From: Crambe crambe
Lineage: Eukaryota > Porifera > Demospongiae > Poecilosclerida > Crambeidae
DNA: 64,000 bases
Direction of reading: 5' to 3'
Assembly: GCA_963924555.1 (NCBI GenBank)
Contig: OZ004589.1
Location: forward strand, 1,116,001-1,180,000
This document shows positions 30,158 to 42,235 of this stretch, piece by piece. Under the pieces are notes generated by a model. It had not been told where the DNA came from and did no database searches. It worked only from the letters and a program-made list of their open reading frames with translations. How positions within the stretch are numbered: position 1 is the stretch's first letter; each line of letters opens with the position of its first letter. The translations under genes were made by a program, and so were the position numbers.

Positions 30158-30465
30158 TTTTTTTCTTGGTCCGGAAAGGAAAAGGGTCGGCGAGACTGCA
30201 AGTGGAATACACGCGCGCGCAAATGCACGTGGCTAACTAAAGTGAGACTTCTACCTGGCATAGCTATGGTGCTCTCTGACAGCAGTACTGTCTCACGTGT
30301 ATGGAAGTGAAGTAGAAATCATCATAATTTTTCATTCATTAATTTTCATTCGAATTATTTACAGTGCTGAACAAACAGAGATTATTATATAAAAGTAATA
30401 ATAAGTTTCTTATAATAGAAGTCTATAATAATATAGACTTTATATTATAAAGTCAATAATGTGGT
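30158..30465. other. FAM192A promoter / NPC1-like 3' flank
   Basis: Contains a CpG-rich ACACGCGCGCGCAAATGCACG tract at 30208-30228 next to the FAM192A start and AT-rich sequence beyond. No gene is seen. Confidence 0.5.
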
Positions 30466-33104
30466 TCATAGGTTCTTTTTCGACTTGCTCATCTCTAGAA
30501 AGCGCTCTGAGGAGGTGATTTTGTAGAAGCAGTGAGACATAATAACTTTGAACTAATACAGCGAAACATGTCTAATCAGACCACTGGCCCCCTGCATTGC
30601 AAACTAAGGTACCTAAAACATATTAAGGCCATATATTATTCCTGGCCCTGAATACTCACTTCAGCTGAGTAGCTGATGTCAATGTATTTTCCTAAGTAAA
30701 GCTTGATGTACTCTTGAAAACCTTTCTCCCAGATTTTGGCCAATTGGTTGTCCTGGACTGGAATTGAGACGACAAGTCTCGTGGCATTCTGGAAGTTGGG
30801 CTTTCCATTAGGCAGGACTGTAAAGGAGGGAGGAAAAGAAGAAGGTAAGAGAGAAAGGGAAGGAGGAGAGAAATAGCTACTTTTAGAATCTGTTGATAGC
30901 TCACAATTGAATCCTTCAAATGCAAAAATAGGTAATACTGGCCCTCCAAAGGCCCCCAGGCAGGACATCTGTCGACTTGAGTACAAGGGGTTCTTAGACG
31001 AGGTTGGGTCCCTATGAAGGAGAAGGAGAAGGTAGGGAAGAAAATCTAGTCCAGGATAAAAGATGGCCTATTTTTTCTATGCCCACTTTTTGGTGTTGCA
31101 ACGACCAAAGCCTGTTGTAGTGTTCACTTGATCATTCATTATAACTAGCTAGACTATCTCAACCAAATTTCAAATTTCAAAAATCAGCTCATAGAGAGCT
31201 CTCTGCTAGCTAGTATTTGAATTCTATGCCCACTATTTGGTGTTGCAACAACCAAAACCTGCTAGAGTGTTCACTTGATCACTATAGCAATCTCAATTCT
31301 TCAAATTTCAAAAACCAGCTCATACAGTGGATGATCAGCTCTCTGCTAGCATTTTGGTGAAGAATTGAGAAATAGTGTATCTATTTTACCTTATGCAGTA
31401 GTAGATGTGGTAAGAATTGTTTATCAGACCAAATTCCTCAGTGTATAGCAGATTTTCCTTGCTGTTCTGGAAGTAATTGAGCACACTCCATATGGTGCAA
31501 TTAGCGTTTGCAGGGGCCAATGGCTTGTGGCAAATGTCACTCAGGGTCACAACGACATCAGTCCCATTGCCAAGAGTACCAGTGTATCTAGCATAGTTGA
31601 GGTAGTCTTGCACTTCTAAGAGCTGTGCATGTGATGTGTAGACTATAACTTATGTTAACAATCTCTCTATAACTCATCTCTAAGAGAACTTCATTGTCAA
31701 GAGCTGGTCCAAAAGTCCAATTGCCAGCACCATACACTCCAACAGGTTGGAACTCAAAGGAATATGCATTGGATTTTGGGGTCACTATAATCCGTTGGGA
31801 AGGGGGATAAGGAGGACGAGGAGGTAAAGGGCAGAGGTCAGGTGTTTTGCAATCATCACAGCTGCATCGGTACTGAGGATAACTGGTGTTGCATGGGATG
31901 ATGAAGGTCTCGTTCTTGACATGAGCACCAGGAGGTATGGAGGAAGTGGGGTGATCATAGTGATAATGTATGGGAAAGGGTGAGATATGGTTCTGGATAG
32001 GATTACTGAGATAATTCAACCATTTTGTTGAGCTGCAGCTGTCTGTGCCTCCACACATGAGATCTACCACATTTGTATCACCCTGGGGATATCGCACGTC
32101 TGAACAAGACCGATACAGACTCTTTGCGTACTTGTCAGAGAGATAGAATGCAATGCTAGTGATGGCCATTGTAGCTTTCCCATCTCCATCTGTACAGTCT
32201 TCAGGGGTGGAGTAGAGGGATTGATCAGGGGAACATGTTACAAAACAAAAATGATCAATGAAATTCCTGATGCAAGCGGGACAATGACCGAAGAGTTGTC
32301 GAGGAAATTTCATTTGTGTTGCAAGCTCAACTAGTTGTGAGTAATCACAGCAAGCCAACCCACGCTCAGCTGCTATTCTGGGACAAGTTTCCTTGAGTAA
32401 CTCGACAAATCCTGTTCCGAGGGAATTTATATCCCGGGCAGGATTATTGTCGTAGCAGGGAAGCCTACCACCTGCGATATAGGGACTATCAGCACACATG
32501 CCATACCAAGTACAACGGCCAGACTCCCTGGTGAAGTTATTGAGGTTGCAGGCTGAAGATAGTACCAGTGGGATACAACCCAGAGCCTGTTCAAAGTGCA
32601 ACATCCGTGAAGTATCACAATAAATATAGCTAGTCCTAGCCCATGTGCAGAGTCACCTGATCTTAGTAATTCAGAACTCAAAGTTGAACTAATAGCTAGT
32701 CTTGGAAATGTTGATGTGTCTGCAGAATTATTTGGTGGTGGTGGTTGTCATCAACCAAGGCATACTCTGCACCATATCTCAGCTATAAGCACTATAGTTA
32801 GCTAAATGCTAAAATAAGGACTCATAGCATATATAAATGACCTAGCCAAGATGTAATTCCACTTTGTAATATTTGCAATGTGAGGTTTATGCTTAGTGCC
32901 ATCCAACTATAGAGTGTTTGCATGTATCTTTATATGCCTAGTTGCCAACGGCAGCAATTCGGTGCACAATCTCCATAGAGCATAAAATGATTGGTATGGT
33001 AAAAGACGCCTGGTAAAGGATGCATTACAAACACTCTACTGCTAGCTAGAAAGTGGACTCACCAGGGGCAGCAGACTAAGAAGAAGTTTGAGTGAATACA
33101 TCAT
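30466..33104 (-). CDS. soluble NPC1-like protein, copy C (NTD fused to middle luminal domain)
   Basis: Predicted secreted or luminal sterol-binding protein of 493 residues. Exons: 33063-33104, 31674-32586, 31390-31612, 30905-31011, 30660-30817, 30466-30504; 494 codons, all phases agree. Exon 1 plus the start of exon 2 give the signal peptide MMYSLKLLLSLLPLALG. Exon 2 carries the NPC1 N-terminal domain (CTWYGMC, CCDYSQL, HCPACIRNFIDHFCFVTCSP, CGGTDSC, CSCDDC), with the Gln equivalent to human Q79 kept and the N41 position changed to Pro. After a PLPPRPPYPP hinge, the same exon runs straight into the middle luminal domain (RIIVTPKSNAYSF, GPALDNEVLLE). Later exons complete that domain ([37 protein letters not shown]). 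TM1 and its linker are absent. The protein ends ...SAERFLEMSKSKKNL where full NPC1 would enter TM2. The exon 2 donor is A|gttata, the only one that fits the phase. Confidence 0.88.
31115..31380. repeat. two family A fragments
   Basis: Both carry TGTTCACTTGATCA, AAATTTCAAATTTCAAAAA and CAGCTCTCTGCTAGC. They are separated by a duplicated segment, TCTATGCCCACTATTTGGTG / TCTATGCCCACTTTTTGGTG. They lie in intron 3 of NPC1-like copy C. Confidence 0.6.
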
Positions 33105-33268
33105 TAAATCTTCTGTTCAGCTGGAGAAACTGCGCTGACCTGTGCAACTATCTATGAACGATCTGATAGCCAGCCCTTTTACCTTTGACCCCTTCGGGGA
33201 GGTGACCATATGCACGCACACATAGGGTGCATAGGGTGCGCGTGCATGCTGCTCGAACCTAGTACCTA
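33105..33268. promoter_or_regulatory. upstream region of NPC1-like copy C
   Basis: Holds the putative promoter. The palindromic-element nest begins about 165 bp upstream of the start codon. No TATA box is obvious. Confidence 0.35.
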
Positions 33269-33270
33269 TA

Positions 33271-34366
33271 CTGAGGTTTTCAGGTTGGTTGACACAAAAT
33301 TTGCCAACAGTGCAGAATTAAATTCGTGCTCGCAAACTTTAGGAGCATTGCATTTGTATGACAGTATTTTTGCTCGCTTGAATTTATCTTGCACATGCGC
33401 AAATTCTACTGGTCAACCAACCTGAAAACTTCAGTACAGGGGTTTTCAGGTTGGTTGACCAGTAGAATTTGCACATGTACAAGATAAATTCAAGCGAGCA
33501 CAATATACTGTCATATAAATGCAATGATCTTAAATTTTGCGAGCACGAATTTAATTCTGCACAGTCGGCAAATTTTGTGTCAACCAACCTGAAAACCCCT
33601 GTACACCGATTTGCAGGTCGGTTGTCACAAAAAGGTCGTCAAATTTCACGCATGCGCGTTCGTCTCGATTCAAAACCAATGGAATTCAACACGCATGCGT
33701 GCAAATTGACGACCTTTTCGTGACAACCGACCTGCAAATCGGTGTAGTACGACCTTTTCGTGACAACCGACCTGCAAATCGGTGTAGTACGACCTTTTCG
33801 TGACAACCGACCTGCAAATCGGTGTAGTACGACCTTTTCGTGACAACCGACCTGCAAATCGGTGTAGTACACCGATTTGCAGGTCGGTTGTCACGAAAAG
33901 GTCGTCAATTTGCACGCATGCGTGTTGAATTCCATTGGTTTTGAATCGAGACGAACGCGCATGCGTGAAATTTGACGACCTTTTTGTGACAACCGACCTG
34001 CAAATCGGTGTACTGCAGATTTCACTTGCCTTTGAAAATTGCGTGGGCTACTGCGCATGTTTTGTATTGCAATTTTATACAGTGGTAATGAGGGTCAAAG
34101 GTCATACGCAAAACTCAATTTTCAAACGCAAGTGAAATCTGCAGTACACCCATTTTCACTTCACTTTGAACGTGCTCCGGGAAGCGTATGGTTTGTTTTT
34201 TCAAGGCTGTTTCAATGGGCATCAATGGAACCCACAAAGCATAAGCTTCCCGTGAGATATTTGGAAGGTTATGCTTTGTACGCGCCGTTTAATGTTTATT
34301 GAAACTGCCCGAAAAAACAAACCGTACGCTTCCCGGGGCACGTTCAAAGTGAAGTGAAAATCGGTG
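33271..34366. mobile_element. row of TA-flanked palindromic elements (MITE nest)
   Basis: Full-length palindromes sit end to end, each bounded by a single TA. E1: 33271-33434 (CTGAGGTTTTCAGG...CCTGAAAACTTCAG). E2: 33437-33601 (CAGGGGTTTTCAGG...CCTGAAAACCCCTG). E3: 33604-33744 (CACCGATTTGCAGG...CCTGCAAATCGGTG). Then three 40-bp direct repeats of the E3 right end (33747-33866), E3' in reverse orientation (33870-34010), E4: 34013-34144 (CTGCAGATTTCACTTGC...GCAAGTGAAATCTGCAG) and E5: 34147-34366 (CACCCATTTTCACTTCAC...GTGAAGTGAAAATCGGTG). None codes for protein. TA flanks and inverted ends fit Tc1/mariner-type MITEs. Confidence 0.85.
33747..33866 (+). repeat. 40-bp tandem repeat, 3 copies
   Basis: Each unit starts GTACGACCTTTTCGTGACAA and ends CCGACCTGCAAATCGGTGTA. 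It is the amplified right terminus of palindrome E3. Confidence 0.97.
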
Positions 34367-34377
34367 TACCTATATGC

Positions 34378-35915
34378 TACCGTACTCGCGCGTTATTAGG
34401 CGTATGCGCTTATACAGAGGTTTTAGGGAATCTTGCAAAATGCTGAGTGTGCATTCTCGCGCATGCTCAACTTTCGAGCCTCGAAAATCTCACCGGAGAT
34501 GGTGAATAGCATGCTAATAGGTTAGAACTATACTAGAACAGTCACTAGCTAGCTCTTCAAAGCTTACTTCTCTAAAGTCCTGAACAAATCTGAGCACAAT
34601 TTCAAAAATTCAAGCAGTGCGCATGCGTAGTAGTCCGAGGCCTGACGACCAATTTTTGCAAGATTCACAGGAAGCAAACCACCGCTTAACAGCGAGTATG
34701 CGCCTAACGGCGAGATGGATAATTTAATTTAGGTGGGCATTAATTAGAGTATCGCGTGAAGCTAGCGTGAAGAACCATAGATAGTAGACACGGAACAGGA
34801 TTGGAAACTTAATACTACCATGCGCGTGCTATCCGTGTTTGCCGGGAAATTTTGGCGCGAGATATGAATGCATAGTTACCACATAATATGTAGTTAAGAA
34901 TGAGTTCTGCAAAAGATATCAGAGCGAATATTAGTTTAGTAGCTTAATATTAGCTGGACTAGAGTGTTTCCATGTTGTGCTTTTATAAAATAATAAAATT
35001 TAATATGAGACTAGATCTAGCTAGATAGTATAAATCTATGAGAGATTCAGTATCTCAAGTTTTGAAAGATGAAGAGTTTAGTCTTCCTCTCCAGCCATCT
35101 ATAGATGCCCGTTCTTGTGCAGAGAGCTTTATGGAGTGGATAATGAAACATGATAATCCAAATAAATAATAGAAATGTAATAATAATAACTATTTAACCC
35201 ATAGTTTAACACTGCAATCAAAAAAAACTAACAGCTATGAATCAATATAACATATATCATCCGATAGACAAACTATTATACTACTAAAAGATATCAAACG
35301 CTTGACTTCTAAATTTATATTAGTCCTGTTCTAGTCCCACAAATTGGTAGGCCTATAAAATCTTTAGCAACATATCCTACACCAAAAACAGTTATTACAC
35401 TCTTTATTTCAGTCTATTCCAGTAAGAAACTTTACCTTCCAAAATTCTATAGGATAAAATTGCAAGAAAAACACTTGTACTCGTAGCTCTAGTCCCACAA
35501 AGTCTGTACCTCTCTTCCTCAGAAAATGTATTGCGACAATAGGGCTAAATTTTCTATGGTTACAACGCGGATAGCACGCGCGAAATGTATTAGCTTAATG
35601 GGAGTGACGTCACATGACGTAGGCAGTTTCCAATCCTGTTCCGTGTCTAATATCTATGGAAGAACCAGCAGTAAGTGGCAGTTCTGTGCAGAAACACAGT
35701 TTTAAGTGAGGTAAGCTTAGCAAAGAGTTGCTAAACCAGTAAGAGAACACAAATAAGCCAGAAGAAGCAGAAATAGAGCTTATTATTATTAGGATTAAAC
35801 TATGGGTTAAATAGGAGCGCTTAACAAAGGGTAGTTAGTGCAGCAAGAAAACCAGCGCCTAACAATGAATGTGCGCTTATTAGCGAGATGCGCCTAATAA
35901 CGCGCGAGTACGGTA
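34378..35915. mobile_element. 1.5-kb TIR element with a nested second element
   Basis: The outer ends TACCGTACTCGCGCGTTATT (34378) and AATAACGCGCGAGTACGGTA (to 35915) form inverted repeats of at least 25 bp. Inside, ATANTAGACACGGAACAGGA at about 34782 and TCCTGTTCCGTGTCTAATAT at about 35631 bound a second inverted-repeat element of about 0.86 kb. The inner element carries further inverted CpG-rich blocks (near 34822 and 35567). I see no transposase frame. Confidence 0.75.
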
Positions 35916-36172
35916 GTACATAGCCTCTACTCTATCAATTCACAGATTCTTCGAAAGAAAACTCAAAGTAGCTAATAGCTACAGTAGCCATAGAAACACA
36001 TGGAGTCCAAGACCATAGTTCAATGATAACCACCCAACCATGGTGTGCAGTCATTTTGTAGCTAAAATCTGGAAATCATCACAATCATTAAAATCTAATC
36101 TTTTCCTGTATTTATACAAATATAAAGGTAGTAAGTAGCTAAATAGCTAGTAACACATTTCTTTAAAAATCA
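35916..36172. repeat. 3' flank of NPC1-like copy B, duplicated at 38390-38600
   Basis: TACAGTAGCCATAGAAACAC and nearby sequence (AGTCCAAGACCAT, CCACCCAACCAT, CATTTTGTAGCTAA) recur downstream of copy A. The duplicated unit of the array therefore includes 3' flanking DNA. Confidence 0.75.
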
Positions 36173-37295
36173 TTAGCAGTTAAGTTCAATCACTTCTTTT
36201 CCATCTCTCAGGGAGCACTCTGTGGAGCAGAAGCAGTGAGCCACAATATAATAACACAACTTAAATTTTAGCTAATACAGTGAAACATGTCTAATCAGAC
36301 CACTGGCCCCCTGCATTAAAAACTAAAGTGTCCAAATAGCACCTATTCAAACTATTATTCCTGGCCCTGAACGCCCACTTCAGCTGAGCTGATGTCGATG
36401 TATTTTCCTGAGTAAAGCTTGATGTACTCCTGAAAACCTTTTCCCCAGATTTTGGCCAGTTGGTTGTCCTGGACTGGAATTGAGATGACAAGTCTTGTGG
36501 CATTCTGGAAGTTGGGTTTTCCATTAGGCAGGACTATAAGGGAGAGAGGAAGGAAGGAGGGTGTTGAGGAGTGGAGAGAGAGAAGTGGAACACTCATCTT
36601 ACTTTGAGAATCTGTTAACTCACCATTGAATCTCCTGAATACAACATCAGGGTACACTGCCCCCCCAAAAGCCCCCAGGCAGGACATTTGTTGAAATTCG
36701 TAGAAGGGGTCATTGGATGAAGTTGGGTCCCTAAGAAAGGGAGGATTTCTTAAATGATGGCCTATTTCTACATTTTTTGGTGCTGCAAACAATTTGGTAC
36801 ATTGCATGCAACACCCACCAAAACCTGTTATAGTTTCAATACTGGAATTAGTTTTCAGCTGACATTTCAACCAGAATTACTCTAGCCTTCATCAGCGTTT
36901 GTTATAGTCTATTTGCATTCACTGTGTACTGCTCAATTCTTCTAAGACTAGAGAAAGTTATAGTAGTTATGAGAAAGTTATAGTAGTTATAATGAAGTCT
37001 GTTTTTAATAATTATTATTAATGCGACATTATGAGCAAATATCAGTGAACACAAATAGACTTAGTTAGCTACTTATGGTAAGAGTTGTTTATCATACCGA
37101 ATTGCTCCATACGTAGCAGATTTTCCTTACTGTTCTGGAAGTAATTGAGCACACTCCATATGGTGCAGTTAGTGTTTGCAGGGGCTGATGGTTTGAGGCA
37201 AATGTCCTTCAGGGTCACATTGACGTCAGTCCCATTGTCAAGAGTACCAGTGAATCTAGCATAGTTCAGGTAGTCTTGCACTTCTAAGAGCTGTG

Positions 37296-37327
<32 letters not shown>

Positions 37328-37357
37328 ATTATGTGTGTGCATGCGCATGCGTGTGTG

Positions 37358-37388
<31 letters not shown>

Positions 37389-37841
37389 TGGTATAATTAG
37401 CTATAAAAAGTTTTTTGAAATCTTCCACCAATTTTTCAGTTTCTTCATATCTGCACTGTAAAGATTTACTGCACCATTTTGTCCCAATAGCTAGTCGTGT
37501 TGTGTTGTTGTTGTTTTTTGTTTTTGTTTTTGTTTTGTTTTTGTTTTATTGTTGTTGTTGTTTTAGTGTGTGTGTATTGGGACAATTTAGTGTGCAGCAC
37601 ACACTTTCATTTTTATAGCTCTATCTCTAATAGAAGACAATCTCTCTCACTATAACTCACCTCCAAGAGAACTTCATTGTCAAGAACTGGTCCAAAAGTC
37701 CAATTGACAGCATCATACACTCCATAGGGTTGGACCTTAAAGGAATATGTGTTGGATTTCGGTGTCACTATGATCCAATGGGAAGAAGGATAAAGGGGAT
37801 CAGGTGGTAACGGGCAGAGATCAGGCGGTTTGCAATCAAAA
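36173..37841 (-). pseudogene. NPC1-like copy B, decayed
   Basis: Recognisable pieces: last exon 36173-36217, exon 5 36379-36533, exon 4 36624-36730, exon 3 about 37075-37280, and the 3' part of exon 2 37657-37841. Exon 1 and the whole N-terminal sterol domain are gone, leaving only from CKPPDLCPLPPDP onward. Exon 3 has lost its end: relatives read NNSYHIYHCTR before a gtaaat donor, but here it reads NNSYHK-stop with no proper donor. The exon 5 donor changed from gtgagt to gtgggc. The remaining frames are open, so decay may be recent. Homology upstream of 37841 switches to another copy's intron. Confidence 0.8.
37302..37388. repeat. (TG)n microsatellite in copy B intron
   Basis: Two TG runs around a GTGCATGCGCATGCGTGTG core, at the same intron position where copy A has a much longer (GT)n. 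Confidence 0.9.
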
Positions 37842-38257
37842 GAAGGTAAGGGAGAAAGGGAAGGAGTGGAAAGAGAGAAATACAACTCATTTTACTTTTA
37901 ATAGCTCACCATTGAATCCTTCCAATGCAAAATACTGGCCCTCCAAAAGCCCCCAGGCAGGATATCTGTCGACTTGAGTACAAGGGGTTGTTAGATGAGG
38001 TAGGGTCTATGAAGGAGGAGGAAGAAAATCTAGTCCAAGATCAGATTTAGATTTTGCAGTAGTAGATGTGGTAAGAATTGTTTATCAGACCAAATTCCTC
38101 AGTGTAGCTAGCTATAGCAGATTTTCCTTGCTGTTCTGGAAGTAATTGAGCACATTCCATATGGTGCAATTAATGTTTGCAGGGGCCAATGGCTCGTGGC
38201 AAATGTCACTCAGGGTCACAACGACATCAGTCCCATTGCCAAGAATACCAGTGTATC
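37842..38257 (-). pseudogene. fourth NPC1-like fragment (exons 4 and 3)
   Basis: Carries exon 4 (SSRQISCLGAFGGP, about 37910-38011) and most of exon 3 ([31 protein letters not shown], about 38050-38257). Sequence and intron order match copy C more than A or B. It breaks off at 38257 exactly where a repeat-like GGGGCTGATCCAGG sequence starts, so it is a rearrangement remnant. Confidence 0.75.
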
Positions 38258-38320
38258 CAGGGGCTGATCCAGGTAGGGGCGGGCCTAAGGGACCAGGGCC
38301 CCCCCTTTTCCATAACCGCA
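38258..38320. mobile_element. transposon-end-like fragment
   Basis: CCAGGGGCTGATCCAGGTAG, followed by GGGCGGGCCTAAGGGACCAG and a run of C, resembles the terminal sequence of many animal hAT-type elements (CAGGGGCGGATCCAGG-like). No opposite end was identified. Confidence 0.35.
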
Positions 38321-38608
38321 GTATACATGCGCACTCGCATGCATACATGCTTTGGGTGCGCATGCGTGCATGCTGTACTGAGGAAGTAGCTAATAACTAC
38401 AGTAGCCATAGAAACACACACAGTCTCCAAGACCATTGTTCAATGACAGCCACCCAACCATAGTGTAAAAGATGACTCCATTATGTTTAATAGAGTGACC
38501 CTTAAGGATGCAGTCATTTTGTAGCTAACATCTGGAAATCATCACAAAATCTGTTTATTCAGTATATAAAGGTGGTAAGTAGCTAAATAGTAACAATAAA
38601 GTCATTAA

Positions 38609-41385
<2,777 letters not shown>

Positions 41386-41722
41386 TACTGAAGTCTTCTG
41401 TTCAGCTGCCAGTTTATGCTGTGCAATGATTTATATAGCTGATGGAGAGTCGCACCATAGTCGTGCCATGCTCGTATGATGACGATCTTACGGTCTTACG
41501 ACGATCTTACGATGGATTCATGGGCTTACTGCGGGGCTAGTCTGGCAGACTACCGCGGGGATTTTTATAATTCAGTTATTACGCTAAAGATCGACCCCTA
41601 CGCGACCTCTAGTCTAGTAATGACGCAAGCTTATGTTGCGCATGCGCGCGTGATAGCTATGGGCGTGTCGTATAGTGACCTTCGACCTTCTCTATACCCA
41701 GCAGCTGGCTAGTTTGTGAAAG
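41386..41722. promoter_or_regulatory. divergent promoter region NPC1-like copy A / VMAC-like
   Basis: 337 bp between divergent starts. TGCGCATGCGCGCG at 41637-41650 is an NRF-1-like palindrome about 73 bp upstream of the VMAC-like ATG. A short tandem, CTTACGGTCTTACGACGATC, lies at about 41487-41506. Confidence 0.5.
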
Positions 41723-42235
41723 ATGAGCTTAACCAAACTAAATATAGACGAGGCAAATGCGCATCTCAGACAGCTACATAAGAGGGTCTTTGAGCTGGAA
41801 AACCAGATCCAGATGCAAGCTTTACACGTGGAAGAACTCCAGAATACTAATCTCCACTTGCAACAGCAGCTGAAGAAGACCACAAGAGAACATGCTGAGG
41901 CTTTAAAGGAGAAAGATGGTCTAGTTTCAGAACTGACTCAACGCCTGGAGGAGTCAGAGGAACAAGTTCAGCAACTTCTTGAAGCAGCCCAAGAGAGAGA
42001 TGCTGCTGTTTCAAAGCTGGAGAAGAAAGCTAGATTATTTTATGAAGTAGTCGAACATCGTTCATCTTTATCTTGCATTCTAGCAGTGATGGATGAATTG
42101 AGTGTACAAGATAGTGAAGAAGACGAGAAGGAAGACAAAGAAAGAACAGATAGTAACAGAGGGACCACTGGTGGATCAAACCCAAGAAACAGTCCAGAAA
42201 CTGAAACAGCTGCAAAGCTAGACTCAACAAGTTGA
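41723..42235 (+). CDS. VMAC-like: VMAC-like coiled-coil protein
   Basis: 170 residues, single exon. The N-terminal 105 residues form a continuous heptad-rich coiled coil. EANAHLRQLHKRVFELENQI matches the EANAHLxxVHRRxxELE start of vertebrate VMAC (vimentin-type intermediate filament associated coiled-coil protein). The segment KKARLFYEVVEHRSSLSCIL matches the RAELLQDICRRRPPLAGLL segment. The C-terminus is acidic, then Ser/Thr/Asn-rich and unstructured. The cellular role is poorly known even in vertebrates. Given two aligned conserved blocks and similar length, homology is likely but not certain. Confidence 0.7.
   Translation: MSLTKLNIDEANAHLRQLHKRVFELENQIQMQALHVEELQNTNLHLQQQLKKTTREHAEALKEKDGLVSELTQRLEESEEQVQQLLEAAQERDAAVSKLEKKARLFYEVVEHRSSLSCILAVMDELSVQDSEEDEKEDKERTDSNRGTTGGSNPRNSPETETAAKLDSTS

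Follow-up and report, generated by a model that had tools for sequence, protein, structure and literature searches.

A tandem array of NPC1-derived genes in the sponge Crambe crambe encodes an offshoot of NPC1 in which the N-terminal sterol-binding domain (NTD) is joined through a Pro-rich hinge to most of the middle luminal domain (MLD), preceded by a signal-like exon 1 and with neither membrane helices nor a sterol-sensing domain (SSD). The array lies on the minus strand at 30.6-41.4 kb of the 64,000-nucleotide stretch of DNA analyzed here (the window; C12:1116001-1180000). A separate full-length NPC1 was found in the same genome, on contig C15, and comparison with it indicates that the offshoot was created by a deletion within a single large exon.

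Results

The genome searched comprised 143,139,886 bases in 119 contigs. By Pfam profile search, NPC1_N (PF16414) matched three places in it, i.e., copies A and C of the array, both on the minus strand (E 9.8e-58 and 2.7e-59, respectively), and one place on C15, while NPC1_MLD (PF22314) gave eight genome matches, six at the array and two at the C15 gene. A preliminary description of this DNA had proposed a tandem family with two intact copies, in which one open exon runs from the NTD straight into the MLD. The domain order held, with NPC1_N matched and NPC1_MLD matching the succeeding exons in both A and C, and so did the single open exon, which in both copies leads from the NTD through CPLPP... 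to IIVTPKSN...DNEVLLE. The family stood insofar as A and C carry this layout, but only copy C is intact.

The signal peptide proposed earlier was recovered as a hydrophobic, signal-like stretch formed by exon 1 and the start of exon 2, with the hydropathy peak of copy C at residue 7; signal-peptide and anchor calls were made here from hydropathy rather than with a dedicated signal-peptide predictor. Past residue 30, the 19-residue windows of A and C fell below TM-like hydropathy (maxima of 1.29 and 0.84, respectively), in agreement with the earlier claim that membrane helices are absent, and the part of the full-length NPC1 that was tested gave three hydropathy peaks beyond its signal stretch. 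The reported absence of an SSD from the locus was also borne out, as none of the eight genome matches to PF12349 lay on the window's contig. When the whole assembly was queried with the TM3-to-SSD region, all three matches fell in the C15 gene and none at the window locus. The possibility of overlooked downstream helices was rejected because neither PF12349 nor the TM3-SSD query matches the window's contig. The array is flanked by exons of a FAM192A/Fyv6-like gene (PF10187; 29806-30232, minus strand) and of a xylose isomerase-like TIM-barrel protein (PF01261; 42373-42729, minus strand).

Copy C (41385-38795; all features on the minus strand) begins with exon 1 at 41350..41385, which carries the ATG and the signal-like stretch (gene model, donor GT, hydropathy). 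Exon 2 (40187..41092, donor GT) holds the PF16414 match and encodes the NTD, the Pro-rich hinge, and the start of the MLD, without TM1 or TM2. The MLD continues in exon 3 (39701..39933; PF22314 E 1.3e-13) and in exon 4 (39277..39383), which was placed by the gene model and is followed by an intron absent from the full-length gene; the PF22314 genome match over this stretch, at 21.2 bits, is below the cut-off. Exon 5 (38795..38973) encodes the end of the MLD and reads through the old splice donor to TAA, its one terminal stop in the model; the PF22314 match to its ORF (E 0.064) is below the cut-off as well. The frame is open, all four introns are GT-AG, and the product has 486 aa. By exact string, TATATAAA occurs at 41430..41437, which places it 45-52 bases before the ATG of copy C, and AATAAA occurs downstream at 38554..38559; exact-string searches found no TATATAAA upstream of copy A and no AATAAA after it in 30300-30636. 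Two introns of copy C contain long uninterrupted repeats, i.e., 166 bases of CA in intron 2 (39946-40111) and 208 bases of CT in intron 4 (39031-39238). An ORF with an ATG start and a coiled-coil-like sequence (41723-42235, plus strand) is oriented opposite to copy C, with 337 bases between it and the ATG of that copy; its Pfam matches were all sub-threshold (BLOC1_2, NYD-SP28). It may form a head-to-head pair with copy C and share its promoter.

Copy A (33104-30636, minus strand) has exon 1 at 33063..33104 (gene model), exon 2 with the NTD, the hinge, and the MLD start at 31678..32586 (PF16414), and MLD exons 3 and 4 at 31390..31622 (PF22314 E 1.8e-13) and 30905..31011 (gene model; 76.6% identical to copy C). 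Exon 5, read through to the stop, was modeled at 30636..30817, with PF22314 matching ORF 30636-31067 at E 2.3e-09. The frames are open and three of the four introns are GT-AG, but intron 2 is AT-AG, with AT in place of the GT that is found in copy B, copy C, and the full-length gene, and on this point the count of two intact copies failed. If spliced, copy A would yield 490 residues. Because intron 2 is 55 nt long, its retention would shift the frame and give a 346-residue product composed of the NTD, the first MLD strand, and a tail. Four GTs lie within this intron, three of them out of frame, and the in-frame one leaves an intron of 37 nt, which we judged too short; with the AT donor, this led us to reject two intact genes. 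The AT may reflect a miscalled base in the assembly. Immediately upstream of this copy, 33269-34024 contains nested inverted repeats, with arms that reach 161 nt and are 97% complementary, together with a tandem unit of 40 bp; the stretch probably represents a cluster of mobile elements by which the copy A upstream region was replaced or displaced.

Between A and C lie two damaged relatives, both on the minus strand. Copy B (36173..37837) is a 5'-truncated remnant that runs from the end of exon 2 to exon 5 and a relic of the TM3 exon; it lacks the NTD, and its joined frame is broken, although its exon 3 ORF still matches PF22314 (E 6.2e-13). A 30-base CA run is also present in it. Fragment B' (37931..38327) consists of disrupted pieces of exons 3 and 4 (PF22314 E 1.3e-9 on ORF 38112-38396) and is closest to copy A, its exon 4 piece being 94% like that of A.

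Six exons had been proposed for these genes. In A and C the old donor, which follows SAE, is gtgagt, and in B it is gtgggc; translation past SAE gives VS(I/V)QGQE in A and C and VGVQGQE in B before reaching TAA. From the old donor to this in-frame TAA, A and C are identical at 23 of 24 bases, compared to 24 of 60 bases beyond it, and the putative sixth exon is identical at 26 of 39 positions, with gaps of 1, 3, and 17. Because conservation ends at the TAA, we set the gene end at 38795 in C and 30636 in A, with five exons; the conserved donor itself could account for part of the 24-base conservation. Five exons fit better than six, and the six-exon model was set aside, as conservation between A and C does not support it. 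A relic of the ancestral TM3 exon lies behind copy C (38609..38668, minus strand) and reads CSLRDELK, compared to RSIEDELS in the full-length protein; it is the counterpart of the former exon 6 of copy A (30466-30504). Splicing to either of its two AG acceptors gives SAP or SAF and then a stop, or a short tail. Since each 3'-end reading (read-through or either AG acceptor) stops before any helix, the product is without membrane helices regardless of the 3' model.

In the C15 gene, one 1440-nt exon encodes the NTD, TM1, the cytosolic loop, TM2, and the start of the MLD, and is followed by MLD exons, the TM3 exon, and the SSD exons; its sequence was read on into the third luminal domain, and the gene model stops short of the end of the gene. 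The corresponding exon 2 of the offshoot is 531 nt shorter in A (909 nt) and 534 nt shorter in C (906 nt). Because a single C15 exon spans the NTD to the MLD start, a deletion within that exon created the fusion. In the full-length protein, the missing segment begins just past the hinge, CPTPPQAP, and ends near FYRTEMMIV; the aligner places four hinge residues inside the gap. The fusion had been attributed to loss of TM1; TM1 is indeed gone, but the cytosolic loop, TM2, and ~30 N-terminal MLD residues went with it. Consequently incomplete, the MLD is nonetheless matched by Pfam in exons 3-5; its match to human NPC1 begins at residue 404, and its match to the crystallized soluble MLD chain 5HNS begins at residue 20 of that chain, compared to residue 3 for the full-length protein. 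The intron phases (0, 0, and 2, with 0 for the old donor that follows SAE) match those of the full-length gene. The common exon order and phases and the deletion inside one exon support the derivation from NPC1 claimed previously, and the TM3-exon relic together with the shared introns and phases likewise marks descent from NPC1. The deletion junction is common to A, B, and C; hence, the deletion predates the duplication of the copies in tandem, and it is not an error made locally in the assembly.

The extra intron of the offshoot is GT-AG with a CT-rich tract and lies at 39276-38974 in C, 36623-36534 in B, and 30904-30818 in A. At its position, the full-length gene (C15, about 199530-199465) has ~22 coding residues that human NPC1 does not have, and within the offshoot this stretch contains a TAA in C but reads in frame without a stop in A and B. 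Possible origins of the difference are an intron gained in the offshoot and an intron turned coding in the full-length gene.

Synonymous divergence from the C15 gene is saturated (NG86 dS of 2.06 for A and 2.39 for C), and with dS to NPC1 above 2, the offshoot is, by this estimate, old. With human NPC1 as the outgroup, changes unique to the offshoot and unique to the full-length gene numbered 23 and 26 for A and 20 and 29 for C, which suggests that the offshoot protein has changed no faster than NPC1. Between A and C, 151 sites differ in 475 codons (dN 0.081, dS 0.243, ratio 0.33); the ratio is 0.29 for the MLD and 0.38 for the NTD, and Fisher tests on rounded counts gave p values of 1e-6 and 1e-4, respectively. 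Seven of seven coding indels in exons 1-5 are multiples of three, and only 21 of 5000 neutral simulations ended without any stop. Relative rate, dN/dS, in-frame indels, and neutral simulation together led us to reject a long-dead pseudogene, though not recent decay.

A branch model gave omega of 0.41 on A and C and 0.165 on the long branch to the C15 gene, with a one-omega model worse by 2 x delta lnL of 15.0, so constraint is, on these estimates, weaker on A and C than on the long NPC1 branch. Omega of 1 was rejected for A and C together (2 x delta lnL 24.0) but not on either branch alone (1.5 for C and 0.9 for A); thus, present constraint on both copies cannot be claimed. Exons 1, 2, 3, and 5 of A and C are 90-95% identical and their introns 46-74%, which places exon 4, at the identity given above, near intron-level divergence.

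Within the aligned stretch, 17 of the 18 human NTD cysteines are kept, as are all four MLD cysteines. Of the residues taken here to form the sterol site (W27, E30, N41, Q79, P202, and F203), both offshoot copies and the full-length gene retain W27, Q79, and P202. F203 is present in A and C, with L at this position in the full-length gene, and none of the three retains the E30 or N41 of human NPC1. The equivalent of L176 is M in the offshoot. The designation of the MLD as NPC2 binding was upheld in part: copy C keeps the QPY loop, one Phe of the second loop, and the CxR Arg, presumably the residues that touch NPC2, but ~30 MLD residues are lost, and copy A has QPV in place of QPY. NPC2 genes had been suggested as something to look for; the same genome has NPC2-type matches at four places on three other contigs. 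Structure prediction of copy C exon 2 with copy A gave a mean pLDDT of 31.8, too low to inform on the fold.

Functional work on the human protein gives these residues a context. According to PMC6062155, P202A/F203A in human NPC1 abolishes cholesterol binding, and export by an NPC1 without an NTD is rescued when the NTD is supplied separately on a TM1 anchor; an ER-directed version of the anchored NTD fails, and the construct is anchored, not soluble. PMC6163316 reports a loss of transfer with L175Q and with L176Q in the human NTD and states that direct contact of the NTD with NPC2 is undemonstrated; MLD binding to NPC2 is described in PMC7228765.

Discussion

The reading we favor, tentatively and with somewhat less than even confidence, is that the offshoot is a soluble luminal or secreted sterol carrier or buffer that would meet NPC2 via its remaining MLD and pass sterol in trans. 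An NPC1 duplicate would have lost TM1, the cytosolic loop, TM2, and the first ~30 MLD residues through the deletion in its large second exon, and everything from TM3 on by terminating at a stop codon shortly beyond the former splice donor. The 486-residue product of copy C would enter the secretory pathway through its predicted signal peptide and either stay free in a lysosome-like lumen or be secreted; its NTD would bind sterol, with the protein acting as a soluble carrier or buffer, and, meeting NPC2 through the rest of the MLD, it would hand sterol over to full-length NPC1 in trans. The steps from expression and secretion to sterol binding, contact with NPC2, and hand-over are ones that we infer from the gene's sequence. 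A free luminal carrier is the simplest reading; NPC2 docking is less sure because the 5HNS match begins at residue 20, not 3. The carrier reading is favored because the domains, the cysteines, and W27, Q79, P202, and F203 are kept with no TM-like window, because the coding sequence shows the signs of constraint given above and NPC2-type matches occur in the genome, and because an NTD separate from the transporter part can serve it (PMC6062155). It is weakened because only one copy is intact, ~30 MLD residues are missing, E30, N41, and L176 are changed, and copy A has QPV; because omega on A and C is raised and exon 4 is near intron-level divergence; and because the NTD of PMC6062155 was anchored and failed when directed to the ER, and PMC6163316 calls direct NTD-NPC2 contact undemonstrated.

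Other explanations draw on much the same data. The protein might buffer or scavenge sterol by the NTD alone, the shortened MLD being a leftover without NPC2 docking. The ~30 missing MLD residues and the retention of P202/F203 fit this, and the donor loss in copy A, with its 346-residue NTD product, would be a further step toward an NTD-only protein; on the other hand, MLD dN/dS is at least as low as that of the NTD and all four MLD cysteines are kept, so the MLD was not free to drift, and we consider this explanation unlikely. No more probable in our judgment is a gene family that was long functional and whose remaining copies are now turning into pseudogenes: the exon 2 donor of copy A is dead and that copy lacks TATATAAA, both B and B' are wrecked, exon 4 diverges at the intron level, and omega on A and C is 0.41, with neither branch alone excluding 1. 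Against such decay, copy C has a full set of GT-AG introns, an open frame, TATATAAA, and AATAAA, and omega of 1 is rejected for both branches jointly.

That the offshoot is instead a decoy or regulator, binding NPC2 or sterol and thereby lowering delivery to full-length NPC1, would agree with the presence of the loading modules and the absence of the membrane part that completes transport; we regard it as distinctly improbable, as constraint on sterol-pocket residues suggests that sterol binding matters. Least credible, and by a wide measure, is an artefact of assembly collapse or missed exons that hides a true gene running into membrane helices. The long CA and CT repeats in the copy C introns are prone to assembly error, but A, B, and C share the deletion junction, the TM3-to-SSD query of the whole assembly matches the C15 gene only, and each 3'-end reading stops before a helix.

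Compared to known systems, the carrier that we propose is closest to NPC1 itself. The NTD of copy C is 34% identical to that of human NPC1 (PDB 3JD8) and 59% to that of the C15 protein, and its MLD is 43% and 65% identical, respectively; exon order and phases equal those of C15, whereas the offshoot differs from NPC1 in having no TM1, no TM2, nothing from TM3 onward, no SSD, and ~30 fewer MLD residues. In a PDB search, the NTD also matched NPC1L1 and yeast NCR1 (6V3F, 3QNT, 9F40, and 8QEB), with scores below those of NPC1; the full chains deposited under these entries are multi-pass membrane proteins. The laboratory NTD-TM1 fragment described in PMC6062155 is alike in that an NTD apart from the transporter part still serves it, but it is engineered, TM1 anchored, and without an MLD, unlike the offshoot. 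To NPC2, a soluble luminal sterol carrier with an ML domain, the likeness is in role only, as that domain (PF02221) is unrelated and encoded by separate genes in this genome. PMC6548501 reports non-canonical NPC2s from anthozoans and not from the sponge Amphimedon; with these, too, a soluble carrier broadens sterol handling, by a different route. In another sponge, Halichondria, NPC2 changes on bacterial uptake are reported (PMC12345144), a result with no bearing on the offshoot.

Among titles and opening lines of abstracts in the open-license literature, we recognized no description of a natural membrane-free NPC1 with the NTD joined to the MLD; the parts of the offshoot are those of NPC1, and their arrangement was not found in print within what those titles and openings cover. 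A pattern search for relatives, in collections without animals, gave seven matches on prokaryote contigs and two on viral contigs, none of which was confirmed.

Going further, a natural soluble two-module NPC1 might serve as a free sterol shuttle from NPC2 to full-length NPC1 or to other cells, and so be a third partner in the pathway, a proposal that we put forward as rather doubtful. If the offshoot is expressed and functional, evolution would have split the luminal loading part of NPC1 from the membrane transporter, leaving a soluble protein of natural origin in which the need for the membrane part in the hand-over among NPC2, the NTD, and the MLD could be examined, and an early-branching animal would have another route by which to handle dietary or symbiont sterols.
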